IMG/VR virus record: IMGVR_UViG_3300006750_000048
Span: 1-30,632 of that record
DNA: 30,632 nucleotides
Reading direction: 5' to 3' (one strand)
Source: a virus
In this document: piece after piece, positions 1,761 through 30,632 of the stretch
Layout of the letters: every line of letters starts with the position of its first letter
How positions within the stretch are numbered: the first letter of the stretch is position 1
Position numbers and translations under genes: made by a program
Notes under the pieces: model-generated
What the model was told of the DNA's origin: nothing
The model's input: only the letters and a program-made list of their open reading frames with translations
Databases searched by the model: none

Positions 1761-1763
1761 AAA

Positions 1764-3011: not shown

Positions 3012-5421
3012 TGGCTTTTTCCTCTAGTTCCTCAATTCGGGCCAGCAACTCTTGAACAGCTTTTATCAATGGGAACACAAAAGCAGATGGTGAAATGGCT
3101 TGCTTACCGTCAGGTTGCTCGTCCCACCCATCAAATTCGTATATACCCGCTTTCATCATCGCAACTCTTACTTCCTGTGCGATTAGCCCGTGGTCGACTC
3201 TGTCTGACATGGGCTTTATGTTTTCCGAGTCATAACTTGTCCACTCTTCCGGGTACTCACTGGGTGACTTGTAGCTGAAAGTAACTGGACGAAGATCATT
3301 TATAAAAGACAACCCAAGATCCGCATCAACGATATCTTTCTTCATTCGTTCGTCAGATGAATAGTACCAATCAAGTGCCGAATTAAAATCAGCGTAAATA
3401 TGATTGGTGGTATTACCTATATATACATAGTTATCGGTGTTAACAGGTAAATCTGACCCGATCGCAATCCTACTGGTAGCACCTGTTGCATTTAATACAT
3501 TAGAGACACCAATAGATATGTTTTTAGATCCGGTTGTCACTGTGCTACCGGTTTCATGCCCAATGAAAACATTTTCACCACCGGTAGTGAGGTCATCACC
3601 GGCTGCTGCCCCTAGTATTATATTGTCTGACCCTGATTCCAAGACGTTGGCTGCGCCCCAGCCCATTAGTATATTATCAGCCCCGGTTGCGACTCCGGTA
3701 TTAACAGCGCCGCCGATAACTACATTTCTAGAAGCTGATGTTGCGTCATTAAAAGAGCCGCCGATAACCACATTGAAGTCACCTGTCGTGCCGCATTGTC
3801 CGTTAGTACCTATACATACATTAGCCGCCCCTTCCGTCAAGGTATATGCGGCCATCGATCCGATAATAATATTTGAATCCCCCGTTATGGCGGTAGTTCC
3901 TCCTGCCTTCCAACCCAAAGCTATGGTGTCATTCGGCGTAGCACACCATATACCTGCGGAATAACCGATAAATGTATTCCTAAGACCATCACTATTGGAC
4001 AACCCGGCTCCAGCGCCGATAGCGGTGCAATGATCTACATCAGCATCAGCCCCTAAAAGCGCATTTTGTCCCAGAGCGACATTGCCATCACCAGTTGTAT
4101 GATTACCACCCGTCAGATCCATGGCACCACCATTGGTAATAAAATCACCAGCAGTAATTGTGAGATCTCCAGAGGTAACTGTAAGATCTCCAGAGGTAAC
4201 TGTAAGATCTCCAGAGGTAGCTGTAAGATCTCCAGAGGTAACTGTAAGATCTCCAGAGGTTATCGTTATACCTCCTGCTGCAACTGTCAGTGCGTCAGTC
4301 GTGTCGAGTGTTCCGGTTACATCTACCCCGGCAGCATCGAGGCTGAGTTTAAGATCACCGATATGTGAGAAACCGACGTAGTTGGCATGACTCCACATAC
4401 CCGATCCGGTTTCATTGGTGAAAGTATACGAAGGAGTACCAACTGCTCCGTCAGGAACATCGGTGACTCCTGTAACAGTGAGTGTTCCGGTTACATCTAC
4501 CCCGGCAGCATCGAGGCTGAGTTTAAGATCACCGATATGTGAGAAACCGACGTAGTTGGCATGACTCCACATACCCGATCCGGTTTCATTGGTGAAAGTA
4601 AGCGAAGGTGCTGTGACGATTCCATCGACAAATTCTATTGGCGCAATTGCCGACACAGATCCATCGCGCAGAAGAGCAGACCCACCGGCTGCTTTTGCAG
4701 CCCAATGAAGTGCCGAGAATTGCCCGGCTCCACCACCAGCAGCAGCAGACACAGGACTGTCTTCGGCTTTTTGCGCCCATTCTTCAGCGTAACTGGTTTC
4801 CAAAACACAAAGTGCTGTTTCGGCTACACACAAAGTTGTTTCGTCCTGACACAGGACTGTCTCGGCAGCAGACTTTGCAGAGTGGTGTAGTGCCGAGAAT
4901 TGCCCGGCTCCACCACCAGCAGCAGCAGACACTGCACTGTCTTCGGCTTTTTGCGCCCATTCTTCAGCGTAACTTGCTTCCAACGCAGCGTTTGTGATGT
5001 AGCTGGTCGACGGTCCTATTAACTGGTAATTTGTTCCGTCGAATCGAACAACGTACACGACACCGTTTGCAATATCACCGGCAATCAATGTAGCCCCATC
5101 CGGGCCTTTAATTTCTATCGCGCCGATGGTGTCAATATCAAGAGTTGGCGTGCCTGTGTTGGTATGCGTGGCAACGAAGACTGCTTCATCACCCGTGGTG
5201 TTCACCGTCCTGACATCTGTCCCGGTGAACGCAATTGCATAAGCGTTCCCACTACCTGTTTCAGTAGCAAAGGTGGACTTGCCGGTCGACATTGCGTCAG
5301 CAGCAACAGGTAATAAGTCGAATGCTGTTTCAATACCATCCAGCTTCGGATTCATCTCCGATGAACGAACCTTCGTGTTCGCAATAAAAGCTTGGGTATG
5401 TACCCAATAATTGTTAGCCAT
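3001..5421 (-). CDS. Tail fibre with C-terminal S74 autoprocessing chaperone
   Basis: 806 aa, start ATG at 5421 directly after the tail nozzle-like gene. The N-terminus (MANNYWVHTQAFIANTKVRS) is a typical fibre attachment region. The shaft contains two copies of an EEWAQKAEDS..SAAAGGGAGQFSALH unit, two copies of a TFTNETGSGMWSHANYVGF unit, a run of SGDLTVT repeats, and Gly/Asn-rich head-like repeats (NVALGQNALLG, NTFIGYSAG, DNIILGAAAG). Residues about 685-806 form an intramolecular chaperone of the Peptidase S74 type: SSDERMKKDI carries the Ser689/Lys694 pair expected for self-cleavage, followed by LRPVTFSYK, HGLIAQEV and a C-terminal helix (VQELLARIEELEEK). It should trimerise, cut off the chaperone, and bind the host receptor. 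Confidence 0.93.
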   Translation of the reverse strand: MANNYWVHTQAFIANTKVRSSEMNPKLDGIETAFDLLPVAADAMSTGKSTFATETGSGNAYAIAFTGTDVRTVNTTGDEAVFVATHTNTGTPTLDIDTIGAIEIKGPDGATLIAGDIANGVVYVVRFDGTNYQLIGPSTSYITNAALEASYAEEWAQKAEDSAVSAAAGGGAGQFSALHHSAKSAAETVLCQDETTLCVAETALCVLETSYAEEWAQKAEDSPVSAAAGGGAGQFSALHWAAKAAGGSALLRDGSVSAIAPIEFVDGIVTAPSLTFTNETGSGMWSHANYVGFSHIGDLKLSLDAAGVDVTGTLTVTGVTDVPDGAVGTPSYTFTNETGSGMWSHANYVGFSHIGDLKLSLDAAGVDVTGTLDTTDALTVAAGGITITSGDLTVTSGDLTATSGDLTVTSGDLTVTSGDLTITAGDFITNGGAMDLTGGNHTTGDGNVALGQNALLGADADVDHCTAIGAGAGLSNSDGLRNTFIGYSAGIWCATPNDTIALGWKAGGTTAITGDSNIIIGSMAAYTLTEGAANVCIGTNGQCGTTGDFNVVIGGSFNDATSASRNVVIGGAVNTGVATGADNILMGWGAANVLESGSDNIILGAAAGDDLTTGGENVFIGHETGSTVTTGSKNISIGVSNVLNATGATSRIAIGSDLPVNTDNYVYIGNTTNHIYADFNSALDWYYSSDERMKKDIVDADLGLSFINDLRPVTFSYKSPSEYPEEWTSYDSENIKPMSDRVDHGLIAQEVRVAMMKAGIYEFDGWDEQPDGKQAISPSAFVFPLIKAVQELLARIEELEEKANAR
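4155..4260. repeat. 21-bp tandem repeat in the tail fibre shaft
   Basis: About five copies of a 21-base unit (GTAACTGTAAGATCTCCAGAG on the plus strand, with single-base variants) encode repeated SGDLTVT heptapeptides on the minus strand. Because the unit is a multiple of three, copy changes would lengthen or shorten the fibre without breaking the frame. Confidence 0.92.
4306..4600. repeat. 121-bp direct duplication in the tail fibre
   Basis: Bases 4306-4426 recur at 4480-4600 with no difference that I can see (period 174). They encode the segment from TFTNETGSG to DAAGVDVTGTL twice. Near-perfect DNA identity in a protein repeat points to recent duplication or gene conversion. Confidence 0.9.
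4711..4975. repeat. 85-bp direct duplication in the tail fibre
   Basis: Bases 4711-4795 recur at 4891-4975 (period 180) with only a few differences. They encode the repeated SYAEEWAQKAEDS / AAAGGGAGQFSAL unit near the fibre N-terminus. Confidence 0.88.
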
Positions 5422-7575
5422 TTATCTCTGCAGCCTCCGGGGGTCGTAATGCAGAATCATTCCCTGAAGTATAAACGGGTCTGAGTATGCAGTCTCGTTG
5501 AAAATCATGAAACCTATGTTGGTTGCCGTCCCGGTTATATTTGCTCTAGCCCTGGCAATTGAAGCGCCGTCCCATGTGAACTCATCCCAGTTGTCTGAAT
5601 CCCAAAACCCGCCACTACCGAAAACAGATACGTCATGCGTTCCCGAAATAAATTCATCACCACTGTAATCAAGATCCACAATAAACTTCAGATCCTGCTG
5701 CTGTGGAGAGTTGAGTTCCAGATCCGCTCGTCTGAATCGTTTGCGACGTAGCGGAGATCCGACGTGGTTGAACGGCAGCCGTACAAACGAAGTAATAACA
5801 GCGCCGTCAAAATCCTTGCCGATCTGGTCTTCGTATACAAACCCGTCGTCACCATCGGTACCACCGAGAGCGTCAGACACAAAATAGGTTCGTTCTTTAC
5901 CGGTTTCATCATCTGTGTTGTAGATCTTCAGTACCGGATACGGGTACTCAAGAAATCCGAATTCCGGCGCTTTCTTACGGTTGTAATCCTGTCGTCCACC
6001 AGCGGGTACATACAGAATTATCGCGCTGTTCTCACTGAAATATTGCCGGTACTGGTTTGTCTCTCGCACGATAGTTGAATCCGTGAACTGACCGCGCAAC
6101 TGGGTGACGATCGGCTGAATAAGTTGTGACACGGTAGCGCCGACAAAATCACCGAAGGCATCGGTACGCGCCACACTGGTAATGCCCAAATCATCAAGCG
6201 CATAAATCGTGTCGATCTTCTGCGTTGAGTGCAATTTACCACCGGTTTGTTCGCCGACCAGTTTCATTTCCCAATCAGAAACACTCTTACCAAACAGGCC
6301 GCGTGTCTCTCTGTCTGTCGTCAACACGAGGACATTACCGACAACACTGTTCATGCCGGTTATTTCATCACCCAATCCGAATTCGGCAGAACCAAGAAAC
6401 CCGCTGAAATTGAATGGAAGACCAACAGTCGAATGAACAACTCGCCCACCGGGGTACGCAAGAAACAAGTGATTTCTGTGTTCCTGAATAAGAAACGGAT
6501 TACCAACCGGCAAAACGTCGCCAGCAGTCGGTGCAACACCCGGCATCATTATCGGCGAGACATACCCGCTCTGATCTATTTCAATAGCAAAGTCATCAAC
6601 TCCGCTACAAGCGTATGCACTGTATGAATCGGCCAGTGCAAAAAAGTTATGGTTATGAAACTTGTAATGTCCACCGGCTGACAATGTCAACGTATACCCG
6701 GCTGCACTTGCGTCGGCAATTTTTGTTGTACCCGGTGATTCAAGCACATCGCTATCAGCCCACGTACCACCACTCACCGTGTGGCATATAAAATATCCTT
6801 CACCAGATCCGTCCCACGCAACAGATCCTTCATTCAACACGATCTTGTGGATGACTGCTGTTTCTCCAATAGTGGAATTGGTCAGCGTGTCACCTTCAAC
6901 AACAGCCGACCCTGCCGCGAGCCCGCCGTTAAATGGAACAATAAATGTCATATTGACACCAGTAGTTGTCCAGCCTGATGCAGACGCTACATGAATGACA
7001 CCGGCTGTCTGTCCTATGTTATCCCTGACGCAATAAACCTTGTCGAGCAATTGCCAGGCACCACGCACGACACCGGCACCCGGTGGCACGGTTATGTCGG
7101 CCCGGTAATTATCTCTTGCTTCAAGTAACCAGATGTCCTCGATATCAAGCGACGGTGATATGAGCGCACCGGGTGTTGATGTGACTGAAACAGTTGATAA
7201 GGCAAACGTGTCATCAATGGTAAATGTGCCGGTTGCCTTGGTGATCCCGATGGAGTCACTGCCATACGTGCCATCGTCATCCCAGATCCCGCAGATCTCA
7301 CCTGAGAACCCGGAATCACTGCCAGTAACCGTTTGCCCCAGAGACAAGCCATCGACTGTGTCTACTTCCATTCCCTGGAAGGTGGCATCACTGGGTTTTG
7401 GTCTGCCGTCGAATCTTTCAAAACCGGGTATGCGCCGATAACCGCCGTTGTACCACGGTTCATAATTTGTCATGGCAATTGCAACACCAGTTTTAATTGA
7501 GATCGCCGGGGTGACAAGATCTAGCCCACCACCAAACGAGAAGTGTTGAATTTTTGTGCTACCGCGAGCGGCCAT
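5422..7575 (-). CDS. Putative tail nozzle/tubular structural protein
   Basis: 717 aa, ATG at 7575. The N-terminus (FSFGGGLDLVTPAISIKTG, then NYEPWYNGGYRRIPGFERFD) matches a phage tail protein family I know from podoviruses, in which a 'GGld..tpa...pG.a....N.e....GyrRi.GyerfdG' opening leads into a beta-propeller-like body. Further family-like segments are the LFLAYPGGRVVHSTVG and GLGDEITGMNSVVGNVLVLT stretches. It lies between the 222-aa adaptor-like gene and the tail fibre, which is where T7-like phages place the nozzle (tail tubular B). The nozzle assignment rests on position and size; the family resemblance is from memory. No catalytic motif is seen. Confidence 0.75.
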   Translation of the reverse strand: MAARGSTKIQHFSFGGGLDLVTPAISIKTGVAIAMTNYEPWYNGGYRRIPGFERFDGRPKPSDATFQGMEVDTVDGLSLGQTVTGSDSGFSGEICGIWDDDGTYGSDSIGITKATGTFTIDDTFALSTVSVTSTPGALISPSLDIEDIWLLEARDNYRADITVPPGAGVVRGAWQLLDKVYCVRDNIGQTAGVIHVASASGWTTTGVNMTFIVPFNGGLAAGSAVVEGDTLTNSTIGETAVIHKIVLNEGSVAWDGSGEGYFICHTVSGGTWADSDVLESPGTTKIADASAAGYTLTLSAGGHYKFHNHNFFALADSYSAYACSGVDDFAIEIDQSGYVSPIMMPGVAPTAGDVLPVGNPFLIQEHRNHLFLAYPGGRVVHSTVGLPFNFSGFLGSAEFGLGDEITGMNSVVGNVLVLTTDRETRGLFGKSVSDWEMKLVGEQTGGKLHSTQKIDTIYALDDLGITSVARTDAFGDFVGATVSQLIQPIVTQLRGQFTDSTIVRETNQYRQYFSENSAIILYVPAGGRQDYNRKKAPEFGFLEYPYPVLKIYNTDDETGKERTYFVSDALGGTDGDDGFVYEDQIGKDFDGAVITSFVRLPFNHVGSPLRRKRFRRADLELNSPQQQDLKFIVDLDYSGDEFISGTHDVSVFGSGGFWDSDNWDEFTWDGASIARARANITGTATNIGFMIFNETAYSDPFILQGMILHYDPRRLQR

Positions 7576-22943: not shown

Positions 22944-23252
22944 ATGGATGGACTAATATTCGGGCTGACCGACAATGCAGTACTCATTGCGTCAGCGTAT
23001 GTCGGCGCACTGAACGTCGAGAAATACTTTGAGGGGCGCGGAGTACTGGGAGCTATCGTCGGTGCAGGAATTGGCAACACAATCAGCGACAGTCTTGGCG
23101 CAATCATCGATCCGTCGATGCACAATATGATCGTCGGCATTACTGTCGGTTGCATCATCCCACTTTTCGCGCTACCCATCATCGAGAAATTCAAACCGAC
23201 TGCTGACGTTAACGTGCAGTCAATCACTCACACTCAGGAGATACGACAATGA
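22944..23252 (+). CDS. Small membrane protein, first early gene
   Basis: 102 aa, starting at the ATG at 22944 (MDGLIFGLTDNAVLIASAYV), with AGGAGA upstream; an earlier in-frame start at 22899 has no SD and overlaps the promoter candidate. Hydrophobic stretches lie at residues about 5-20, 29-54 (VLGAIVGAGIGNTISDSLGA) and 62-78 (MIVGITVGCIIPLFALP), so two or three membrane segments are likely; the Gly-rich middle is glycine-zipper-like. The C-terminal 24 residues are soluble. Its stop overlaps the next start (ATGA). It could be a holin-like or superinfection-related membrane protein, but its early place argues against a plain lysis role. Function unknown. Confidence 0.75.
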   Translation: MDGLIFGLTDNAVLIASAYVGALNVEKYFEGRGVLGAIVGAGIGNTISDSLGAIIDPSMHNMIVGITVGCIIPLFALPIIEKFKPTADVNVQSITHTQEIRQ

Positions 23253-23407
23253 ACAAATGGAATTTAACGGCAAGCGAAGTACGCAAAGCAACAGCCGCCG
23301 CGAAGTACGCAAACCTTCCGGTAAACTCAGTACTCGCACGACCGGCAACCGCGCGGCAACTTATTAAAGACGTTGCAAGCGAACAGCAAAAAGCCAAACA
23401 CGTTTAA
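23249..23407 (+). CDS. Short basic early protein (52 aa)
   Basis: The ATG at 23249 overlaps the preceding stop (ATGA) and follows CAGGAGATACGACA. The 52-residue product (MNKWNLTASEVRKATAAAKY ... SEQQKAKHV) is basic, Ala-rich and probably helical, with no membrane segment. The leader spacing (GGAGATACGACA-ATG) is the same as for the next gene (GGAGATACGACC-ATG), which supports both starts. No family recognised. Confidence 0.7.
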   Translation: MNKWNLTASEVRKATAAAKYANLPVNSVLARPATARQLIKDVASEQQKAKHV

Positions 23408-23420
23408 CGGAGATACGACC

Positions 23421-23576
23421 ATGACCGCAAGTAAAGAATTTAAGTTAGTACGTAAAACCGATAACGTAATAACCGACGAAGGTAGCGCGCGCAAAATACG
23501 CAAGCTACGCAAGGCTGACCCCGATAAATATTTTATAGGACGTTCGTTCGCTAAGAATGTCGGTGACAAATGGTAG
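23421..23576 (+). CDS. Short basic early protein (51 aa)
   Basis: The ATG at 23421 follows CGGAGATACGACC; a longer in-frame extension to 23373 would overlap the preceding gene and lacks an SD. The product (MTASKEFKLVRKTDNVITDE ... GRSFAKNVGDKW) is highly basic (KIRKLRKADPDKY) and soluble. It is the last gene before the first hammerhead element, whose 5' strand begins about ten bases after the stop. A nucleic-acid-binding role is possible from charge only. Function unknown. Confidence 0.7.
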   Translation: MTASKEFKLVRKTDNVITDEGSARKIRKLRKADPDKYFIGRSFAKNVGDKW

Positions 23577-23586
23577 ACCGACAATA

Positions 23587-23656
23587 AGTCGAAACCGGAA
23601 CGTCGTGATGATGTGCCGGTCTGTCGTTATTTTGACGGCACTGATGAGACTAAAAT
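23587..23656 (+). ncRNA. Hammerhead ribozyme, type II, copy 1 (divergent)
   Basis: AGTC-GAAA at 23587-23594; helix III 23594-23620 (ACCGG/CCGGT, then ACGTC/GATGT with one G-U); cleavage triplet GTC ending at C23621; helix I 23622-23640 (TGTCGT/ACGGCA); core CTGATGA 23641-23647; GACT 23648-23651 pairs with AGTC. Loop I ATTTT (23629-23633) is complementary to AAAAT (23652-23656). All invariant core bases are present. CAAT (23582-23585) and ATTG (23655-23658) offer an alternative extension of helix II. Predicted cut after 23621. Confidence 0.88.
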
Positions 23657-23670
23657 TGGAGAGACATAAA

Positions 23671-23883
23671 ATGAATTTCGACGAATTTAAAACCGCGCTA
23701 GAAACTGCCAAGATCGTTAAGGGTTTTGTTAAATTTTCTGAACACGACGGCTTTTACATCAAGCTAGTTAAATCCGATGTTTTGGAAATGGTAACGCAAC
23801 ACCTTAGCGACGGCATGTTTCCCTATGAAGTAAACATAGACGCGGAATTCAATGAAACGAAGACGCATTTGTATATCAACTAA
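23671..23883 (+). CDS. 70-aa early protein, first gene after ribozyme 1
   Basis: ATG at 23671, with TTGGAGAGACATAAA upstream, so the start lies 49 bases past the predicted cleavage site. The product (MNFDEFKTALETAKIVKGFV ... NETKTHLYIN) is acidic, with a helical first half and strands at the end (FYIKLVKSDVLEMV; EVNIDAEF). It has no membrane segment or known motif. It opens the longest predicted processed RNA (23622-25675), which carries seven genes. Function unknown. Confidence 0.7.
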   Translation: MNFDEFKTALETAKIVKGFVKFSEHDGFYIKLVKSDVLEMVTQHLSDGMFPYEVNIDAEFNETKTHLYIN

Positions 23884-23889
23884 GACACG

Positions 23890-23908
23890 ACACACACACA
23901 CACACACA
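23890..23908. repeat. AC dinucleotide repeat upstream of a small gene
   Basis: An uninterrupted run of about 9.5 AC units sits between the stop of the 70-aa gene and the GGAGAA ribosome site of the next. Such runs mutate by slippage. Here changes would alter the spacer or leader and not the coding frame if translation starts at 23921. Confidence 0.9.
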
Positions 23909-23920
23909 TGGAGAAATGAC

Positions 23921-24088
23921 ATGAATTCAATGCAGATAGTAGCGTGGCGATTAATGTCTGAAGAAGACTACGACAGGGAATATTTTAACTGGTCTTATCT
24001 TGATAAAGATAAAACTGATGCCATTGACAATGACATCCTTTTTGACAAATTTCGCAACGACATAAACATAGAAATGAGGGAGAAATAA
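23921..24088 (+). CDS. 55-aa acidic early protein
   Basis: The ATG at 23921 is chosen because GGAGAAATGAC lies just upstream; an extension to 23852 would read through the AC repeat as alternating His-Thr and overlap the previous gene. The product (MNSMQIVAWRLMSEEDYDRE ... DINIEMREK) is acidic and Asp-rich (YLDKDKTDAIDNDILFD), possibly a protein-binding or DNA-mimic type, but it is too short to judge. Its stop shares a base with the next start (TAATG). Function unknown. Confidence 0.65.
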   Translation: MNSMQIVAWRLMSEEDYDREYFNWSYLDKDKTDAIDNDILFDKFRNDINIEMREK

Positions 24089-24306
24089 TGACAACAAAAC
24101 AACATCAATTAGCAATGCGTTTAAAAGCCCATGCCTTAGCAAATTACGAAGATGGATGGGATACATTTGTCGAATGCTGCACTGATGAAGACTATCTAGA
24201 ATTCGTAGGTGACAAGACAACATGGGAGGCAACATTCAACCTTGCCAAGACTGTCAACGAAGTAATCGCTGATCGACGCGCCGACGCTAAACATTACATC
24301 GATTAA
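24088..24306 (+). CDS. 72-aa early protein
   Basis: ATG at 24088 overlaps the preceding TAA (TAATG), with GAGGGAGAA upstream. The product (MTTKQHQLAMRLKAHALANY ... EVIADRRADAKHYID) is predicted to be mostly helical, with DGWDTFVECCTDEDYLEFVG in the middle. The 'l...a....y.dGwd.ivE' form resembles small phage proteins seen in early regions, but I cannot name a family. It is followed by a 70-base gap with a strong hairpin. Function unknown. Confidence 0.7.
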   Translation: MTTKQHQLAMRLKAHALANYEDGWDTFVECCTDEDYLEFVGDKTTWEATFNLAKTVNEVIADRRADAKHYID

Positions 24307-24310
24307 ATTT

Positions 24311-24349
24311 CATCGAGTATGCACATTGGCAACAGTGTGCATCTCGATG
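24311..24349 (+). other. 14-bp intergenic hairpin, non-hammerhead
   Basis: CATCGAG-T-ATGCACA (24311-24325) pairs with TGTGCAT-CTCGATG (24336-24349): 14 pairs with one bulged T and a 10-base loop. A competing hairpin, GATGC (24346-24350) with GCATC (24357-24361), shares the last bases of the main stem and ends next to the GAAGGAG ribosome site. There is no U run, so it is not a typical terminator. It may be an RNase III-type or regulatory structure in the longest ribozyme-free stretch. Confidence 0.7.
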
Positions 24350-24376
24350 CAATTTCGCATCGAAGGAGATATGACA

Positions 24377-24640
24377 ATGTACCAATACGCAATTATCGAG
24401 ATGATCGGATCAATACCGCACCTTGTCACTACTTCAGAACGCGACTGCGATTCTGATGCGCGGCAAGATTTTGAAGAGTACGTTCGCGACATAGCCCTCG
24501 ATATCACGTCCTGCTACATGGAACGTGGCGATGGCACGTATGGCAATGTAGTTGCCTATGCGCACTTCACACGCAACGTCGGCACTGTTAAGTTTGCTGG
24601 CAAAACGGTGGCTAAATTTTATTTAGACAGCATAAGCTGA
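24377..24640 (+). CDS. 87-aa early protein
   Basis: I use the ATG at 24377, 11 bases after GAAGGAG in the recurrent leader GGAGATATGACA-ATG; an ATG at 24371 is in another frame and too near the SD, and the frame extension to 24326 lies in the hairpin. The product (MYQYAIIEMIGSIPHLVTTS ... VGTVKFAGKTVAKFYLDSIS) has a central helix (ARQDFEEYVRDIALDITSCY) and beta segments on either side, suggesting a small alpha/beta fold. No catalytic motif seen. Function unknown. Confidence 0.7.
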   Translation: MYQYAIIEMIGSIPHLVTTSERDCDSDARQDFEEYVRDIALDITSCYMERGDGTYGNVVAYAHFTRNVGTVKFAGKTVAKFYLDSIS

Positions 24641-24653
24641 AGGGGATACGACC

Positions 24654-24929
24654 ATGACACGCGACGACTTTATAAAAGCATTAGCCGACGGCCACACGCA
24701 TTACAACGACAGCCATATATTAGTACGCACCCGTAGCGGTGCCGAATACTTGGTACACGAAGACCAGTTAGACGGTTTCGAGGATGGAAAATACGACCAC
24801 GTTTTCGGCACACGCAACAATGGCCGGATTCACATGAAAGGCCGCCGCAGGGTAGACACACGCGACCAACTGCGGTCATTTAAGTTAGGAGCCGTTACAT
24901 TGGTGAAACCATCATCAAAGGAGAAATGA
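24654..24929 (+). CDS. 91-aa basic early protein
   Basis: ATG at 24654 after GAAGGGGATACGACC. The product (MTRDDFIKALADGHTHYNDS ... LRSFKLGAVTLVKPSSKEK) has strand-like SHILVRTRSGAEYLVHEDQL and a basic patch (HMKGRRRVDTRDQL), giving a small beta-rich protein that might bind nucleic acid. Its stop lies two bases before the ATG of the next gene at 24932, an in-operon coupling. Family not recognised. Confidence 0.68.
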   Translation: MTRDDFIKALADGHTHYNDSHILVRTRSGAEYLVHEDQLDGFEDGKYDHVFGTRNNGRIHMKGRRRVDTRDQLRSFKLGAVTLVKPSSKEK

Positions 24930-24931
24930 CA

Positions 24932-25270
24932 ATGGAATTATTTAAACCGCATCCAGAATCACATCCTGCCGCCGTTAAGGTTGGACGCATCAACGGGCGC
25001 AACTGGTATAACGTGCCGGTGCATATTCGTCACAACAACAGCAAACATTGCTGCACGGTTGCCGACTACTGGGTCATCACAACCGCACATTCGGCTGCCG
25101 ACGCAGCAAACTTCGTTCGTGATCAGGTCATCGATATTCCTGAAACCGAAATTACTGCTGTCGGTGCTAAAGGTGGCAAGGTAGAACGCTACATCGGATG
25201 GTACTCATCCATCGCAAATTCTGTACACGGATCACGCGATCCACAACTAAAACTCGCACTGGAGAATTGA
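24932..25270 (+). CDS. 112-aa early protein
   Basis: I choose the ATG at 24932 (MELFKPHPESHPAAVKVGRI) because it stands in the same place as the starts of other genes with the GGAGAnATGACA-ATG leader; the ATG at 24926 is in frame but only three bases from GGAG. The product has strands (GRNWYNVPVHIRHNNSKHCC), a helix (HSAADAANFVRDQVID) and a polar C-terminus. The HCC and nearby His are not a recognised metal site. It ends two bases before the next gene. Function unknown. Confidence 0.7.
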   Translation: MELFKPHPESHPAAVKVGRINGRNWYNVPVHIRHNNSKHCCTVADYWVITTAHSAADAANFVRDQVIDIPETEITAVGAKGGKVERYIGWYSSIANSVHGSRDPQLKLALEN

Positions 25271-25271
25271 A

Positions 25272-25640
25272 ATGAAAAATGCTGTTAGACATACACCCAA
25301 TACAAAGGGGCGCACTGGCAAGCGCAATGCATGGTCGGAGCAGGAATGCATCGTCGTGATCATGGCGTATATGGAGTTGCTGAAAGTGCAACGTGAAGAG
25401 GGTGAAATACCTCACGGCATGAAAGCACGATTGCGTAAAAAAGCCTTGCCGCAACTGAACAACCGTTCAGCCGGTTCTTACGAGGCTAAGATGCAGAATG
25501 TTTCGACATTCAGGCATGAGTACGGGTTAGAAATTGTGCAAGGGTACAAAGCCTTACCGGGCGCACAAAACCTGCTCGGTCAATTGCTCGTCAACTACGA
25601 CGACGAGTTCGCAGCGGTAGCTGAATTCTCCGACGGGTAA
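25272..25640 (+). CDS. Stand-alone domain resembling restriction-enzyme N-terminal module
   Basis: 122 aa, ATG at 25272 after GGAGAATTGAA. The protein shows AWSEQECIVVIMAYMELLKV (a W-x-x-x-E opening helix), a basic linker (ARLRKKALPQLNNRS), then RSAGSYEAKMQNVS and LEIVQGYKALPGAQNLLGQL. This fits a domain I know at the N-terminus of HNH and McrBC-like nucleases, with the pattern 'W..eE....l..Y..m...e..g.......r.l...l..RS.gsiE.K..NiS......g.....GYkp..n.Q..L'. The nuclease part is absent. The gene may be a phage decoy or a DNA-binding protein related to those enzymes. Its stop abuts ribozyme 2 directly. Match is by eye and memory. Confidence 0.6.
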   Translation: MKNAVRHTPNTKGRTGKRNAWSEQECIVVIMAYMELLKVQREEGEIPHGMKARLRKKALPQLNNRSAGSYEAKMQNVSTFRHEYGLEIVQGYKALPGAQNLLGQLLVNYDDEFAAVAEFSDG

Positions 25641-25712
25641 AGTCGAAACCGGAACGTCGTGATGACGTACCGGTCTGCCGGGGATTATCTCCCGACACTG
25701 ATGAGACAGATA
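25641..25712 (+). ncRNA. Hammerhead ribozyme, type II, copy 2
   Basis: AGTC-GAAA 25641-25648, starting on the base after a TAA stop. Helix III 25648-25674: ACCGG/CCGGT and ACGTC/GACGT with an A-A mismatch between and GTGAT loop. Cleavage triplet GTC ends at C25675. Helix I 25676-25697 (TG, CGGGG / TCCCG, CA). Core CTGATGA 25698-25704; GAC 25705-25707 pairs with GTC. Loop I TATCT (25686-25690) is complementary to AGATA (25708-25712). SD AGGAGA follows. Confidence 0.93.
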
Positions 25713-25728
25713 TCTCAGGAGACATGAA

Positions 25729-26295
25729 ATGAGACTTGAATTGAAAAACGTCAAGCACTTTGCTGAACTGTCACGAGACGGTAACGCATTTAGTGCAACA
25801 CTCTATGCATCCGGCAAACGTATATGCAAAGTCAGCAACGATGGCAACGGTGGGTGCGACATGCATGAACCGTTGCAGAAAGAAAAATTGTCGCTGATGC
25901 GCAAACGTCTGCAACCTGTACTGGACTACATCGCGACACTCCCGCCGCACGTCAGTGACGCATACAAAAATGATGACGGTAGTCCGTTGACATACGATCA
26001 GGACATCGACTCTGTCGTCAGTGAACTGTTTACCGACACAATGATAATGCGTGACGCAAGGCGAAACTTGAACAGGTACGTGATGGGTTTCGATACGAAG
26101 AGTAAGCAACTGTACACGTGGTCTTTGACACATCGTGGTGAGACAGTTCTAGCATCGAAGGTAAACGCGGCAGCACTGTCTGATCACATGGGTAAGATCG
26201 GTATGAAAAACCCTGACGTGATCTTGCTGAATCAGTTGCCGGAATCAGAGATTATCGGTTACGTCAAACAGGCACACGCAGCAAACTTCACCTAA
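25729..26295 (+). CDS. 188-aa conserved-type phage protein
   Basis: ATG at 25729 after CAGGAGACATGAA, 53 bases past the predicted cut of ribozyme 2. The start (LELKNVKHFAELSRDGNAFS, then ATLYASGKRICKVSNDGNGG) fits a phage family I recall: 'l.nvkh..f.SeEt..F.a.lyvdGk..a.vsN.G.GG.d', an N-terminal beta module followed by helices. The middle helix region is LSLMRKRLQPVLDYIATLPP and the end YVKQAHAANFT. No catalytic residues are known for this family. Its stop TAA overlaps the first base of ribozyme 3. A regulatory or host-takeover role is only a guess from its place. Confidence 0.75.
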   Translation: MRLELKNVKHFAELSRDGNAFSATLYASGKRICKVSNDGNGGCDMHEPLQKEKLSLMRKRLQPVLDYIATLPPHVSDAYKNDDGSPLTYDQDIDSVVSELFTDTMIMRDARRNLNRYVMGFDTKSKQLYTWSLTHRGETVLASKVNAAALSDHMGKIGMKNPDVILLNQLPESEIIGYVKQAHAANFT

Positions 26296-26374
26296 GTCGA
26301 AACGGGGAAACCTGGCAAACGCCAGGTTTACCCGTCTGACCGGGGATAGTCACCCGGCACTGATGAGACAGACT
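26295..26374 (+). ncRNA. Hammerhead ribozyme, type II, copy 3
   Basis: AGTC-GAAA 26295-26302; the first A is also the last base of the TAA stop. Helix III 26302-26335: ACGGG/CCCGT, a G-A mismatch, then AAACCTGG/CCAGGTTT. Cleavage triplet GTC ends at C26336. Helix I 26337-26359 (TG, CCGGG / CCCGG, CA; one unpaired A). Core CTGATGA 26360-26366; GAC 26367-26369. Loop I AGTC (26348-26351) is complementary to GACT (26371-26374). Confidence 0.93.
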
Positions 26375-26397
26375 CTCGATTGATTGGAGATATGACA

Positions 26398-26607
26398 ATG
26401 TACAAAATAGTCAGATCGTATAAAAAAGATTGGCGCAAACTGCGCACCATTAAAACCGGGCTAACGCTAGAACAAGCACAAGCACATTGCAGTGATCCAG
26501 AAACTAGTTCGACAACCTGCACGGGTGCTGTTGGCAAAGCGTGTACCCGCAGACACGGTGATTGGTTCGACAGTTATACTTCTATGGACAAAGTTAAACG
26601 CGCATAG
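26398..26607 (+). CDS. 69-aa phage protein (KIVRSYKKDW opening)
   Basis: ATG at 26398 in the leader TTGGAGATATGACA-ATG. The product begins MYKIVRSYKKDWRKLRTIKT and continues GLTLEQAQAHCSDPETSSTT, a small-protein pattern I have seen in many unrelated tailed phages ('r.iktGlTleEAqaHC.dpetSssT'), here followed by CTRRHGDWFDSYTSMDKV. Cys and His residues could bind a metal, but no standard site is present. The stop TAG overlaps the ribozyme 4 AGTC. The first ~13 codons resemble the 30277 gene start. Function unknown. Confidence 0.78.
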   Translation: MYKIVRSYKKDWRKLRTIKTGLTLEQAQAHCSDPETSSTTCTGAVGKACTRRHGDWFDSYTSMDKVKRA

Positions 26608-26679
26608 TCGAAACAGGTCACGAGGTTTCTCGTGACCTGTCTGATCGGGGATAGTCTCCCGACACTGATGAGACAGACT
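26606..26679 (+). ncRNA. Hammerhead ribozyme, type II, copy 4
   Basis: AGTC-GAAA 26606-26613; the TAG stop (26605-26607) overlaps it. Helix III 26613-26640 is a perfect 12-bp stem (ACAGGTCACGAG/CTCGTGACCTGT) with a GTTT loop. Cleavage triplet GTC ends at C26641. Helix I 26642-26664 (TG, CGGGG/TCCCG, CA). Core CTGATGA 26665-26671; GAC 26672-26674. Loop I AGTCT (26653-26657) is complementary to AGACT (26675-26679), five pairs. Confidence 0.94.
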
Positions 26680-26695
26680 TCTCAGGAGATATGAT

Positions 26696-26935
26696 ATGAG
26701 CAGCAACATAGAAATGAACAAACTGCAACATGAAAACGAAGAGTTACGTGTCAGCGCGAACCGGGTCGAACATGCGAACCTTATTCTACGGGGGCGTGTC
26801 GTTGATTTAGAACGCCGATTACGCCACGCAGAACAGAGACTAAAAAAGATTGAAGCAGGACGATTGCGCCGCGAACGAGAAGTGCGACTACCTGTTACGC
26901 ATCGCATAGCATTGAAGAGCCACGGAAAGAGTTAA
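26696..26935 (+). CDS. 79-aa coiled-coil protein
   Basis: ATG at 26696 in leader CAGGAGATATGAT-ATG. The product is almost entirely one charged helix: MNKLQHENEELRVSANRVEH, then GRVVDLERRLRHAEQRLKKI and a basic tail (EAGRLRREREVRLPVTHRI). Leu/Ile/Val recur at heptad spacing between residues about 9 and 55, indicating a parallel dimeric or oligomeric coiled coil. It could dimerise and bind nucleic acid through its basic end. The stop is eight bases before ribozyme 5. Family not recognised. Confidence 0.72.
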   Translation: MSSNIEMNKLQHENEELRVSANRVEHANLILRGRVVDLERRLRHAEQRLKKIEAGRLRREREVRLPVTHRIALKSHGKS

Positions 26936-26943
26936 ACGCGCAT

Positions 26944-27017
26944 AGTCGAAACAGGTCACGAGGTTTGTCGTGACCTGTCTGACCGGGGATAGTCACCCGG
27001 CACTGATGAGACAGACT
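26944..27017 (+). ncRNA. Hammerhead ribozyme, type II, copy 5
   Basis: AGTC-GAAA 26944-26951. Helix III 26951-26978 (ACAGGTCACGA/TCGTGACCTGT) with loop GGTTTG. Cleavage triplet GTC ends at C26979. Helix I 26980-27002 (TG, CCGGG/CCCGG, CA). Core CTGATGA 27003-27009; GAC 27010-27012. Loop I AGTC (26991-26994) is complementary to GACT (27014-27017). The upstream 10-base ACGCGCATAG is shared with copies 4 and 6. Confidence 0.94.
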
Positions 27018-27042
27018 CTCGATTGATTGGAGATATGACAAT

Positions 27043-27258
27043 ATGGACAACCTGCTCAAAATTAAACAGCGTACAGTTTATGGTCAGACGTGGTACTACC
27101 CGGCATGTGATAAGTCACAAGCGTTAGCTAGGATATCTGGGGAAGGCACATTAACCGTTGCTGCATTAAACATCATCAAAAACGATCTTAAGTTCAATAT
27201 TGAGATTACCCGTGACTACACGGTAGATCCATCATACCTGCATGTAAAACGCGCATAG
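27043..27258 (+). CDS. 71-aa early protein
   Basis: ATG at 27043 in leader TTGGAGATATGACAAT-ATG; the short gap places it 63 bases past the predicted cut. The product (MDNLLKIKQRTVYGQTWYYP ... VDPSYLHVKRA) has strand-rich KIKQRTVYGQTWYYPACDKS, then a helix (TLTVAALNIIKNDLKFNIEI). The opening is similar to small phage proteins with a 'k.k.rt.yG...yyP.c..s..la.i.g..Tlt' pattern, which I cannot name. It ends HVKRA with TAG inside ribozyme 6, the same ending (KVKRA) as the 26398 gene. Confidence 0.72.
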   Translation: MDNLLKIKQRTVYGQTWYYPACDKSQALARISGEGTLTVAALNIIKNDLKFNIEITRDYTVDPSYLHVKRA

Positions 27259-27330
27259 TCGAAACAGGTCACGAGGTTTGTCGTGACCTGTCTGATCGGG
27301 GATTATCTCCCGACACTGATGAGACAGATA
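27257..27330 (+). ncRNA. Hammerhead ribozyme, type II, copy 6
   Basis: AGTC-GAAA 27257-27264; the TAG stop (27256-27258) overlaps it. Helix III 27264-27291 is the same as in copy 5. Cleavage triplet GTC ends at C27292. Helix I 27293-27315 (TG, CGGGG/TCCCG, CA). Core CTGATGA 27316-27322; GAC 27323-27325. Loop I TATCT (27304-27308) is complementary to AGATA (27326-27330). It combines the helix III type of copy 5 with the helix I type of copies 2 and 7. Confidence 0.94.
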
Positions 27331-27349
27331 TCTCAACTGGAGTAATGAC

Positions 27350-27715
27350 ATGACAGAAAAGGAACCGACCATCACTTTGTATAAAAATGATGGGTCTGAA
27401 GTCGAGTTACCGACGATGTACGAAATGTGCGGTAATTGTCACGGCAAAGGATCACACGTTAATCGTGCTATCGATGGCAACGGCATCACATCATCCGAGA
27501 TGGATGAAATTCTGCACGACGACCCTGAGTTTCTCGACAACTACATGAGTGGCGTGTACGACGTACCGTGCGATGAGTGTCACGGTAAGCGTGTCGTGCC
27601 AGTCGTGGATCGGTCACGTGTCTCTGACGAGGAGTGGCAGGAATATCAGGAGCAGTGTGAGATCGAGGCAGCCTGTGATGCTGAGATGGAAGCTGAACGC
27701 AGGATGGGGTGCTGA
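27350..27715 (+). CDS. Zinc-knuckle protein with DnaJ-like CxxCHGK motifs
   Basis: 121 aa, ATG at 27350 after ACTGGAGTAATGAC. Two motifs of the DnaJ central-domain type are present: CGNCHGKG (residues 27-34, Cys27 and Cys30) and CDECHGKR (residues 74-81, Cys74 and Cys77). The four cysteines could bind one zinc. Between and after are acidic helical segments (SSEMDEILHDDPEFLDNYMS; EEWQEYQEQCEIEAACDAEM). Proteins with such paired knuckles are frequent in phage early regions and are of unknown function; a chaperone-adaptor or nucleic-acid role is possible. The next gene starts one base after its stop. Confidence 0.78.
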   Translation: MTEKEPTITLYKNDGSEVELPTMYEMCGNCHGKGSHVNRAIDGNGITSSEMDEILHDDPEFLDNYMSGVYDVPCDECHGKRVVPVVDRSRVSDEEWQEYQEQCEIEAACDAEMEAERRMGC

Positions 27716-27716
27716 C

Positions 27717-27920
27717 ATGATCGAACCTGACTTTAAAGTACAGATCGACATATCTATCAGCGTACTTCACGCTAAAACTCAAAACGCCAGGGAATGGGTA
27801 CATGACCACATTCCTGATGACGCGCAGACATGGTGCGGCGGTATTGTCATTGAACCTCGTTTCCTTGATAACGTCATCGAGGGCATCCAGCAGTCAGGCA
27901 TGACAGTGGAGGCATTTTGA
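27717..27920 (+). CDS. 67-aa early protein
   Basis: ATG at 27717, one base after the zinc-knuckle gene stop and with a GGATGGGG purine run upstream. The product (MIEPDFKVQIDISISVLHAK ... IEGIQQSGMTVEAF) is alternating strands and helices (VLHAKTQNAREWVHDHIPDD; GGIVIEPRFLDNVIEGIQQS), a compact alpha/beta domain. Its stop shares a base with the next ATG (TGATG). No motif recognised; the longer frame from 27549 is inside the zinc-knuckle gene and is not used. Confidence 0.7.
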   Translation: MIEPDFKVQIDISISVLHAKTQNAREWVHDHIPDDAQTWCGGIVIEPRFLDNVIEGIQQSGMTVEAF

Positions 27921-28102
27921 TGACACGTCGTGATCAGATACCAGTAGTTGGTGACTACGTCGAATGCGCTGATGAGTTCAAACAGAACGTCACGCATACC
28001 GGCACTGTCGAAGACATCCTGTCAACGCAGTTTATTTATGTCGATCACATGGGTGTGCAACGTTTCTCTTTCTTTCGCAACTGGTGGAGGTTGATCAAGT
28101 AG
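27920..28102 (+). CDS. 60-aa SH3-like small protein
   Basis: ATG at 27920 (TGATG junction) with GGAGG eight bases upstream; a TTG one codon earlier is not needed. The product (MTRRDQIPVVGDYVECADEF ... VQRFSFFRNWWRLIK) has the pattern of a small beta-barrel: a GDYVEC turn, HTGTVEDI, IYVDHMGVQRF, as in short SH3-like phage proteins. The C-terminus FFRNWWRLIK is basic and aromatic. Its TAG stop overlaps ribozyme 7. Function unknown. Confidence 0.68.
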   Translation: MTRRDQIPVVGDYVECADEFKQNVTHTGTVEDILSTQFIYVDHMGVQRFSFFRNWWRLIK

Positions 28103-28174
28103 TCGAAACCAGTACGTGCGTTTTGTGCGTACTGGTCTGCCGGGGATTATCTCCCGACACTGATGAGACAGATA
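28101..28174 (+). ncRNA. Hammerhead ribozyme, type II, copy 7
   Basis: AGTC-GAAA 28101-28108; the TAG stop (28100-28102) overlaps it. Helix III 28108-28136 has a stem of its own sequence (ACCAGTACG/CGTACTGGT) with a different loop. Cleavage triplet GTC ends at C28137. Helix I 28138-28159 (TG, CGGGG/TCCCG, CA). Core CTGATGA 28160-28166; GAC 28167-28169. Loop I TATCT (28148-28152) is complementary to AGATA (28170-28174). The unique but still paired helix III is strong evidence for conserved structure. Confidence 0.94.
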
Positions 28175-28190
28175 TCTCAGGAGACATGAA

Positions 28191-28502
28191 ATGTTTGAGA
28201 AATTAAATCAAGACATCACACTCGGTTGTTTTGTGCATACTAAAAAGCACAATTTATCCGGGCGCGTCATTGGATTCCAATTTGGGTCACCACAATACCC
28301 GGAGTGGTTGGATATTCAGGAACCTCCATTGACTGATGAAGAACGTGACGAACTCGTGCTGGTCAACATACTGGTCAACAGTGGCGGCGCGATAATCGTA
28401 CCTGACAGTGACTGTGAACTTATCGAACCTATCGAGGGATTCACGCATCTTGATAACAAGTTCTACTTTGGTGCGGAGGATGCATACAATGTCAAAAGCT
28501 AA
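28191..28502 (+). CDS. 103-aa acidic early protein
   Basis: ATG at 28191 in leader CAGGAGACATGAA-ATG. The product (MFEKLNQDITLGCFVHTKKH, then NLSGRVIGFQFGSPQYPEWL) has a small-barrel opening like the 60-aa protein just upstream, then an acidic region (IQEPPLTDEERDELVLVNIL; PDSDCELIEPIEGF). It overlaps the next gene by 14 bases. A protein-binding or DNA-mimic type is possible, but no family is recognised. Confidence 0.7.
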   Translation: MFEKLNQDITLGCFVHTKKHNLSGRVIGFQFGSPQYPEWLDIQEPPLTDEERDELVLVNILVNSGGAIIVPDSDCELIEPIEGFTHLDNKFYFGAEDAYNVKS

Positions 28503-29208
28503 AGATAAAGACAGATCGACAGTCGGATATACACTGTTCGACATTCCATGGAATGCTGATGGCAAGGCATTCGTTAAAACCATTCGTAACTTTATAAACC
28601 GGGATCGATTCACTGTCCGGGTGCGCGGTAATGGCGCACGTGCAGCAGTCGCACGGTTGGAAAACCTGCACCCTCGATCTTACGATCAAGACTTGCCACT
28701 CGATAAAGCAGAAACAGTACGTGTCTATTTTGAAGACAAGCATCACAGGAAGATGACTGAGAACCGGAGGGCAGCGAAAGAACAGGAAGGATGCTACATG
28801 AGAGATGTTCTGAGAAACCTGTACGACATTCTCGGCATCGACTGTGATCAGTCTACCTCCAACACTGTCGCACTGGCAGAGGGTCTGAGATCGCCGCTAC
28901 AGGCACTTTTGTCAGTCGGCACGGTTCCATTCGGCACAGTCGATGAGGATCGTTACGGTGATCAGGGTCGAGGACCTGACGCTGATGACTTCACTGATGA
29001 CCTGATCAGTCGCATCTCGGATCTGGAACAACACGAGAAAGAATTGTTACGTGAACTGGATCAGGAGAAAGAGCGCACGATCCGGTACGCATCTAATTAC
29101 CATGATGCACGACGAGACTGCGCGATCCTGCGTGAGAATCTGCGTCAGATTCCAAGTCGCGAACCGGTCACGTTTACCATTGCTGGTCGAACCATCACTG
29201 TCACCTGA
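28489..29208 (+). CDS. 239-aa protein with C-terminal coiled coil
   Basis: ATG at 28489 with GGAGG upstream, inside the end of the preceding gene; the frame extension to 28408 is in that gene and not used. The N-terminal part (GYTLFDIPWNADGKAFVKTI, NFINRDRFTVRVRGNGARAA) is basic and alpha/beta. The middle is helical (MRDVLRNLYDILGIDCDQST). Residues about 170-225 are a coiled coil (LISRISDLEQHEKELLRELD). A RDCAILRENLRQI segment near the end recurs, in variant form, in the 30277 gene. No known function; a DNA- or RNA-binding regulator would fit the charge. Confidence 0.72.
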   Translation: MSKAKDKDRSTVGYTLFDIPWNADGKAFVKTIRNFINRDRFTVRVRGNGARAAVARLENLHPRSYDQDLPLDKAETVRVYFEDKHHRKMTENRRAAKEQEGCYMRDVLRNLYDILGIDCDQSTSNTVALAEGLRSPLQALLSVGTVPFGTVDEDRYGDQGRGPDADDFTDDLISRISDLEQHEKELLRELDQEKERTIRYASNYHDARRDCAILRENLRQIPSREPVTFTIAGRTITVT

Positions 29209-29252
29209 CGGTGAATTGCAGATTACCAGGGAAATTTGAAAGGATGTACAGT

Positions 29253-29273
29253 ATGAACCTGAAAGGGTTGTAA
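29253..29273 (+). CDS. Possible 6-codon leader peptide abutting ribozyme 8
   Basis: An AAAGGATGTACAGT-ATG leader opens MNLKGL and stops with a TAA whose next base begins the AGTC of ribozyme 8. An ATG at 29244 is also in frame (nine codons). The stop is in exactly the position that real gene stops take before ribozymes 2, 4, 6 and 7. It may be a micropeptide, the relic of a lost gene, or chance. Confidence 0.3.
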   Translation: MNLKGL

Positions 29274-29347
29274 AGTCGAAACAGGTCACGAGGTTTGTCG
29301 TGACCTGTCTGACCGGGGATAGTCACCCGGCACTGATGAGACAGACT
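29274..29347 (+). ncRNA. Hammerhead ribozyme, type II, copy 8
   Basis: AGTC-GAAA 29274-29281, starting on the base after a TAA. Helix III 29281-29308 is the same as in copies 5 and 6. Cleavage triplet GTC ends at C29309. Helix I 29310-29332 (TG, CCGGG/CCCGG, CA). Core CTGATGA 29333-29339; GAC 29340-29342. Loop I AGTC (29321-29324) is complementary to GACT (29344-29347). SD AGGAGA follows. Confidence 0.94.
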
Positions 29348-29365
29348 TCTCAGGAGATATGATAA

Positions 29366-30169
29366 ATGAAAATACTTGATACCATACAATTCTCGGCATT
29401 GCTCAGTTCAATTGGTGAGGCTATCAATCCGACACCTCCGGGTAACTGGAAAGAAAGTCTGGCTGACGCATTTGACATGCTTCAGCACGTGCCTGAACTG
29501 GGTGATGATAAAATGTGGATCGTGTTACAGGAAGAAACCTGTACAACATTCTCGGCATATGATCCAGACACGTATCCGTTCAGTAACGTGTTCTTGTCAC
29601 GTGCTGCCGCTATGCGAGCAGTGCGTGACCAGTACAAAAGTTATCTCGCATTCATGGAAAAGGATCGATCACCTGACGATGACTCGGTACATGAACTGTT
29701 CGATGACCTGACTGCAAAGCGCACGTTGTCACCTCTGCCTGTGGAGTTCATCTGGGAGGACACGAAGAATTCTATCGTGTACTGCAAGTGGACTGTCATG
29801 TCGGTATCGGTAATCGAACCGGATCAGACTCTGCCGCACATCGACAGGGAGAAACTGGCACGTGACTTTATCGAAGAGATGCGCAAGTTCACCACACCTG
29901 AACAGCGTGTAAACATCGATGTCGAGAATGACTTGGTGTCGAATGATGGTACGTGTGCATCGCACGACTATTGTGATGCCAATGTCATAATGATGATCGC
30001 ACTGCAACACCAGACGGATTACTTCAATACTGGTGACGATGAACTGTGCAACGACATCAAAGCTGCATGGGATCGTGCGAAGGTGATCGGGTTTGGTACG
30101 AACCTCGATGACATTGCAGAGTTCACTGGTGCTGAGGCACGACTAGACTATTACGAGGTACGACCATAG
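29366..30169 (+). CDS. 267-aa acidic early protein
   Basis: ATG at 29366 after CAGGAGATATGATAA. It is the largest early gene in the window. The product (MKILDTIQFSALLSSIGEAI, then KESLADAFDMLQHVPELGDD) is acidic, with helical and beta segments (KMWIVLQEETCTTFSAYDPD; RAAAMRAVRDQYKSYLAFME; VEFIWEDTKNSIVYCKWTVM; SHDYCDANVIMMIALQHQTD). I see no catalytic motif, membrane segment or signal peptide. It stands alone on its predicted processed RNA (29310-30222). Function unknown. Confidence 0.75.
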   Translation: MKILDTIQFSALLSSIGEAINPTPPGNWKESLADAFDMLQHVPELGDDKMWIVLQEETCTTFSAYDPDTYPFSNVFLSRAAAMRAVRDQYKSYLAFMEKDRSPDDDSVHELFDDLTAKRTLSPLPVEFIWEDTKNSIVYCKWTVMSVSVIEPDQTLPHIDREKLARDFIEEMRKFTTPEQRVNIDVENDLVSNDGTCASHDYCDANVIMMIALQHQTDYFNTGDDELCNDIKAAWDRAKVIGFGTNLDDIAEFTGAEARLDYYEVRP

Positions 30170-30181
30170 CGATCCAAACTA

Positions 30182-30260
30182 AGTCGAAACGGGAAACCTG
30201 GCAAACGCCAGGTTTACCCGTCTGACCGGGTTTAGTCACCCGGCACTGATGAGACAGACT
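30182..30260 (+). ncRNA. Hammerhead ribozyme, type II, copy 9
   Basis: AGTC-GAAA 30182-30189, 12 bases after a TAG stop. Helix III 30189-30221 (ACGGG/CCCGT and AAACCTGG/CCAGGTTT with one bulged A), like copy 3. Cleavage triplet GTC ends at C30222. Helix I 30223-30245 (TG, CCGGG/CCCGG, CA) with loop TTTAGTCA. Core CTGATGA 30246-30252; GAC 30253-30255. Loop I AGTC (30234-30237) is complementary to GACT (30257-30260). Confidence 0.94.
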
Positions 30261-30276
30261 TCTCAGGAGATATGAT

Positions 30277-30632
30277 ATGAACAAAATAGTCAGGACATAC
30301 GCCAAAGAATGGAGCAAAGATGGGTTTAGCATAACCGAATTTACTATGGATAATCTGGTTTTAGTTTTCTCGTCAGATGATGATAGTGAAACTGGGAAAG
30401 GATGGTATTTGCAGAAGTTTCCCGATGGGGCTACTTCCCAATTATTTAGAACTAGTGCAGAGGGGATGGAGGCTTATCGGACTGATAAGCTAAAGTTTGG
30501 AGAGACTTTTGAACGTGAAGTGGAACCGGTCTGCGTAGCAACGCATCGTGACTGTGCCACCTTGCGAGAGAATCATCGTCATCTGCTTTCTTGGCTTTTA
30601 CAGCAGGTTCAGAGTCACAACCAGTATCCGCC
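30277..30632 (+). CDS. Mosaic early protein, cut by the right window edge
   Basis: ATG at 30277 after CAGGAGATATGAT; another ATG at 30272 is closed at once. The frame stays open for 118 codons to the edge. The N-terminus MNKIVRTYAKEWSKDG resembles the start of the 26398 gene (MYKIVRSYKKDW), including a shared ACAAAATAGTCAG at DNA level. A later HRDCATLRENHRHL resembles RDCAILRENLRQI near the end of the 28489 gene. The middle (NLVLVFSSDDDSETGKGWYL) is unique. It looks assembled from parts of its neighbours. Function unknown; the end is missing. Confidence 0.65.
   Translation, partial: MNKIVRTYAKEWSKDGFSITEFTMDNLVLVFSSDDDSETGKGWYLQKFPDGATSQLFRTSAEGMEAYRTDKLKFGETFEREVEPVCVATHRDCATLRENHRHLLSWLLQQVQSHNQYP

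Follow-up and report, generated by a model that had tools for sequence, protein, structure and literature searches.

Clustered hammerhead ribozymes were described in prophages by Perreault et al. in 2011, where multiple hammerheads flank single genes or blocks of genes and a role in mRNA processing was proposed (PMC3088659). According to the same work, type II is common in bacteria, most type II hammerheads have a pseudoknot that joins loop I to the tail 3' of helix II, three hammerhead arrays cleave in vitro and one (A. tumefaciens) in E. coli, and the early transcript of the haloviruses HF1/HF2 has a mapped 5' end no more than 3 nucleotides (nt) from the hammerhead site (PMC3088659). A passage of a 2017 review again links hammerheads with small open reading frames (ORFs) and phages (PMC6155905), and a passage of a 2023 paper still calls it unknown why self-cleaving ribozymes of bacteria are placed where they are (PMC10085705). 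Here we analyzed the IMG/VR viral contig IMGVR_UViG_3300006750_000048 (the window, which is the whole contig of 30,632 bases), where nine type II hammerheads lie between small genes. These hammerheads most likely separate the cistrons of a divergent, probably early, operon by cutting one long transcript. Such use as an mRNA-maturation system had been put forward in an earlier note on this DNA, which took it to be undescribed; this was wrong, since the proposal and a partial test of it date from 2011 (PMC3088659). The reading itself is well supported, because Rfam matches, co-varying pseudoknots, a stop codon and Shine-Dalgarno (SD) geometry seen over 239 elements, and syntenic hammerheads in relatives with diverged early genes all point to it.

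The covariance-model search that the earlier note had suggested was run against Rfam. RF02276 (Hammerhead_II) matched nine + strand sites, the first starting at 23587 and the last ending at 30263, all at full length (model 1-66) and with scores of 21.9-43.6 bits; six of the nine reach the gathering score of 37, and the window showed no hammerhead match besides these nine. An independent descriptor of our own (GAA and A15.1-U16.1 with helix III, UH cleavage site, helix I, CUGANGA and helix II) recovered exactly the same nine elements and none on the - strand, with a chance expectation of 0.045 elements per window in Markov-1 shuffles. The descriptor demands four helix III base pairs, so that helix III pairing is partly built in; the pseudoknot is outside its search terms. 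All copies are open at helix II, with helices I and III closed by loops, and show the order GUC-GAAA-hairpin III-GUC-hairpin I-CUGAUGA-GAC. The core (CUGAUGA, GAA, A15.1-U16.1, UH cleavage site and G10.1-C11.1) is present in every copy, as had been claimed; copy 1 has the lowest model score, yet its core and pseudoknot are intact. The H17 bases of the descriptor are identical to the cleavage positions predicted before at all nine sites, and therefore the unit lengths of 2054, 661, 305, 338, 313, 845, 1172 and 913 nt are correct. The identification of the nine elements as genuine type II hammerhead ribozymes is well supported, and their self-cleavage in this phage is predicted. Each of them was found by both RF02276 and the descriptor, and they are listed with their pseudoknots as loop I/tail:

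23587..23655, + strand, hammerhead 1: cleavage after C23621; pseudoknot ATTTT/AAAAT; RF02276 21.9 bits
25641..25715, + strand, hammerhead 2: cleavage after C25675; pseudoknot TATCT/AGATA; RF02276 38.6 bits
26295..26377, + strand, hammerhead 3: cleavage after C26336; pseudoknot AGTC/GACT; helix III -24.2 kcal/mol; RF02276 38.7 bits
26606..26682, + strand, hammerhead 4: cleavage after C26641; pseudoknot AGTCT/AGACT; RF02276 40.0 bits
26944..27020, + strand, hammerhead 5: cleavage after C26979; pseudoknot AGTC/GACT; RF02276 43.5 bits
27257..27333, + strand, hammerhead 6: cleavage after C27292; pseudoknot TATCT/AGATA; RF02276 36.0 bits
28101..28177, + strand, hammerhead 7: cleavage after C28137; pseudoknot TATCT/AGATA; RF02276 40.1 bits
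29274..29350, + strand, hammerhead 8: cleavage after C29309; pseudoknot AGTC/GACT; RF02276 43.6 bits
30182..30263, + strand, hammerhead 9: cleavage after C30222; pseudoknot AGTC/GACT; RF02276 30.8 bits

In all nine copies a pseudoknot of 4-5 bp joins loop I to the tail on the 3' side of helix II, a feature that the earlier note did not mention. The pairs fall into three co-changing sequence families, AGTC(T)/AGACT, TATCT/AGATA and ATTTT/AAAAT, and the relatives show GATCCT/AGGATC, GCCCT/AGGGC and TCACC/GGTGA. A set of 239 type II elements, a sample and not a census, was gathered from viral contigs and relatives, mostly with one exact pattern (helix II GUC/GAC). At least four Watson-Crick pseudoknot pairs are found in 81% of these listed elements, in relation to 20% when tails are swapped between elements, and 105 distinct pair sequences occur among them. 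Because the partners co-vary in this way, they offer direct evidence for selection on the folded form in the type II class. Furthermore, helix III reaches -17.8 to -24.2 kcal/mol in seven of the nine copies, within the top ~11% of sampled elements, and about -7 to -8 kcal/mol when its inner part is shuffled; so stable a helix would fit a role as protective 3' hairpin after cleavage. Another contig (L129, reverse strand 1497-3893) contains six type II elements in which the inner arms of helix III are strand-swapped (GGAGAGTC vs GACTCTCC) with the pairing kept. The array could also be a duplication relic of little activity, formed by structured repeats that spread in the operon and are decaying. 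The copies are indeed mutually related and three of them score below the gathering score; however, nine of nine cores are intact, nine of nine pseudoknots pair with compensatory differences and the same geometry recurs in unrelated contigs, and we consider a relic very improbable.

Each element had been placed between the stop of one gene and the SD of the next. The intergenic location just 5' of the SD stands, while the distance to the stop is not constant: the upstream stop abuts or overlaps the element at copies 2, 3, 4, 6 and 7, lies ~9-12 nt before copies 1, 5 and 9, and ~65 nt before copy 8, so that five of the nine have the stop strictly at the edge. The gap before hammerhead 8 holds a six-codon minigene, MNLKGL-stop (ATGAACCTGAAAGGGTTGTAA, 29254-29274), which is preceded by an SD-like AAAGGA, adjoins the element with its stop codon and looks like what is left of a cassette now lost. 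Of the 236 listed elements that remain when each upstream context is counted once, 157 have their 5' edge no more than 3 nt from a stop codon that closes an ORF of 40 or more codons; this stop often reads TA(G)UC and overlaps the ribozyme, and the bases forming it were not part of the sampling pattern. Such a stop occurs anywhere within a 75-nt stretch at 41% of random positions, and a few percent are therefore expected in the narrow 3-nt band. Downstream, SD and start codon follow within 60 nt in 211 of the 239 (88%) vs 22% of random positions, with the start mostly at 17-28 nt; 50 of 51 multi-copy loci are co-directional, with a median spacing of 512 nt. Neither the main text of Perreault et al. 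(PMC3088659) nor the passages seen of other papers were found to state this position rule. We suggest only tentatively, as a rather doubtful extension, that stop codon, hammerhead and SD may be a standard phage intercistronic module in which each gene would be a self-contained and exchangeable message unit. A stop codon that overlaps or adjoins the 5' helix II strand of the ribozyme would let the terminating ribosome transiently block folding and, if this were true, would couple self-cutting to translation termination.

The genes encoding TerS, TerL, portal, major head protein and tail protein are located on the - strand and reach 22379. A 717-residue late protein (5422-7575) matches an amidase-annotated PHROG over residues 371-711, and its position suggests a tail protein. 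The hammerhead region starts at 22944 in the opposite direction to the late genes and contains small ORFs with almost no known relatives; its eight complete units hold 7, 1, 1, 1, 1, 3, 2 and 1 ORFs:

22944..23576, + strand: three small ORFs upstream of hammerhead 1 (22944-23252, 23249-23407, 23421-23576), just after the divergent intergenic region; SD present
23671..25640, + strand: unit 1, seven small ORFs with starts at 23671, 23921, 24088, 24377, 24654, 24926 and 25272; SD present
25729..26295, + strand: unit 2, one ORF of 188 residues; weak match to phrog_17767 (unknown function)
26398..26607, + strand: unit 3, one ORF of 69 residues; a relative with 61% identity is encoded in L153, a viral contig that also has hammerheads
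26696..26935, + strand: unit 4, one ORF of 79 residues
27043..27258, + strand: unit 5, one ORF of 71 residues
27350..28102, + strand: unit 6, three ORFs (27350-27715, 27717-27920, 27920-28102), the first with two CxxC pairs
28191..29208, + strand: unit 7, two ORFs (28191-28502, 28489-29208)
29366..30169, + strand: unit 8, one ORF of 267 residues; phrog_21393 (unknown function)

Pfam and PHROGs gave no function for the array ORFs tested, and the last two ORFs of unit 1 (24926, 25272) had no PHROGs match. The two CxxC pairs of the 121-residue product of 27350-27715 come with a weak likeness to the DnaJ zinc-finger domain, below the Pfam cut-off. A 26-base near-identical repeat, AGAAACCTGTACRACATTCTCGGCAT, is located at 28813-28838 and 29533-29558, 720 bases apart and inside two different ORFs. 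No terminator-like site was found on the + strand between 22944 and 30400, and promoter-like sites in the gaps of this region are not above the frequency in shuffles. A single + strand transcript is in keeping with both results, and the array may be transcribed as one; separate promoters or terminators in the gaps were discarded, their frequency being no more than chance. Judged solely by its divergent layout, the operon is probably early.

According to the mRNA-separating reading, a long + strand transcript would be made, in which each element would fold and cut after GUC. The upstream message would then have a 3' end formed by the helix III hairpin with a 2',3'-cyclic phosphate, and the downstream message would begin with a 5'-OH, with the helix I hairpin as a cap, within a leader of 49-63 nt whose tail may stay pseudoknotted to loop I. 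The outcome would be messages of one to seven genes with structured ends and their own SD, whose decay and translation would be decoupled with no need for a promoter or terminator of their own; the benefit would lie in protected ends and uncoupled expression. A translation switch by SD unmasking was rejected, as SD accessibility changes in no consistent direction upon cleavage. Two candidates for a post-cleavage lock in the leaders, the 8-base palindrome AGATATCT and a TGAGA/TCTCA hairpin, were also discarded, as neither is seen in relatives. In most leaders after helix II (25675-30260), TCTC(A) directly before the SD is a possible partner for the TGAGA of the core, in an alternative hairpin that would undo the ribozyme core.

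The ends left by hammerhead cleavage, 5'-OH and 2',3'-cyclic phosphate, are RtcB substrates. A host RtcB-like ligase or the reverse reaction might join these ends again after cleavage, and the function would then lie in the circularity of the resulting circular or re-spliced RNAs; the units of 305-2054 nt are flanked by elements on both ends. Against this, a search by Perreault et al. for circular or spliced RNA products in bacteria was negative (PMC3088659), the unit size is not constant, and helix II, which joins both products, has only 3 bp and would make re-joining inefficient. We give ligation hardly any credence.

The window copies form a mosaic. Ribozyme 5' halves group as copies 1 and 2, copies 3 and 9, copies 4, 5, 6 and 8, and copy 7, whereas 3' halves with the ribosome-binding site group as copies 2 and 7, copies 3 and 5, copies 4, 8 and 9, copy 6, and copy 1. 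In each half eight pairs of copies are at least 90% identical, and only two pairs are so in both halves. In addition, the sequence before copies 4-6 has a 12-base tail in common, AAACGCGCATAG, behind unrelated genes. On the simplest reading, recombination between ribozyme cores would move cassettes composed of a 3' half, SD, gene and next 5' half; as a secondary consequence of the array, gain, loss and shuffling of cassettes would take place at the shared core, acting as a joint for recombination. The genes after hammerheads 3 and 9 (26398-26439, 30277-30318) begin alike, MYKIVRSY.. and MNKIVRTY.., and both hammerheads share their 5' half. For these two copies, the pattern suggests that a hammerhead may have been duplicated together with its gene.

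A rival claim would be that the ribozymes are mainly portable borders of gene cassettes, where a short conserved joint allows unrelated accessory genes to enter an operon at any place with no polar effect, the repeated cores recombine, and mRNA cutting is tolerated or serves to keep insertions neutral. The discordant halves and the shared tail speak for it, as does the persistence of the hammerhead position while early genes vary among relatives. Recombination-only selection, however, does not require pseudoknot covariation or a stable helix III, and most copies in the arrays of three other viral contigs (L108, L155 and L091) are too diverged for homologous recombination; we regard this explanation as unlikely.

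A related TerL is encoded in 36 viral contigs. Four of them (G004, G007, G017 and G033) contain one to three type II hammerheads each in the equivalent region divergent from TerS/TerL, where positional equivalence in G004 and G017 presumes that the contig ends meet. The eight elements of these relatives differ in helix sequences and have the same core, and the early genes differ between relatives while the hammerhead position persists. The ORF 28191-28502 has a 30% identical relative in the contig L044, also located directly after a hammerhead. In the hammerhead-less relatives no other Rfam ribozyme was found at gathering score. The contig nearest by TerL (G001) aligns to the window at the late genes only; a DNA-level search of the array region against annotated phages gave no match, and two array proteins had no relatives in viral contigs. 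Exact patterns of the window ribozyme 3' halves matched nothing in viral contigs and thus revealed no close sister carrying the array. Among 79 pattern-sampled records, eight hold between five and eight copies at Rfam level, always on a single strand, and by descriptor counts L108 and L155 contain nine elements each and L091 eight. The nine copies of the window are thus at the top of the sampled range and not outside it, and the number is not unique. These three arrays show the same stop/hammerhead/SD geometry, units of about gene length and a single strand; however, their ribozyme helices are unrelated to those of the window and their copies are less alike.

Within the window, the mRNA-separating reading draws on sequence, structure, covariation, position and synteny, and by analogy on cleavage in vitro and in cells, which is known from other members. 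Several points weigh against it. Copies 1, 6 and 9 are under the RF02276 gathering score (21.9, 36.0 and 30.8 vs 37), and the window copies are related by duplication and do not amount to nine independent pieces of evidence. An obvious pseudoknot is missing in two of the three elements of the relative G004, and predicted SD accessibility shows no systematic rise on cleavage. Several TerL relatives with assembled sequence beside TerS have no hammerhead, and therefore the system is optional and not essential in this phage group. Finally, we infer cleavage, transcript extent and early timing in this phage from its sequence.

In the T7 early transcript, RNase III cuts between genes and leaves hairpin-bearing ends. 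That processing works alike, although there a host protein cuts, whereas self-cutting by the RNA is predicted for the window, and the two have no family relation. The HHphage hammerhead of HF1/HF2, from a lytic virus, is also located just upstream of an early gene, but it is a structural variant described as a single copy in an archaeal virus (PMC3088659). The closest systems are the prophage clusters of Agrobacterium tumefaciens (ardA triple array), Azorhizobium caulinodans and Clostridium scindens, which share with the window hammerheads that flank genes or short blocks, the loop I-tail pseudoknot and an inferred mRNA processing (PMC3088659). The window differs from them in having nine copies in 6.7 kb, which exceeds the tested triple array (PMC3088659), and in their location on a viral contig whose late operon is divergent. 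It belongs with the clustered arrays by its nine copies and its eight complete units, which hold 1-7 ORFs each, and the contig also encodes terminase, portal and capsid proteins. What this analysis adds is a dense array of eight complete units together with the position rule over the 239 listed elements, where the stop lies at the ribozyme edge and the start mostly 17-28 nt after it; these turn the suggestion of 2011 into exact predictions of RNA ends, and such arrays offer natural self-cleaving separators for multi-gene constructs. In relation to the described systems, the array is a large, clean example of a known arrangement and not a new kind of system.

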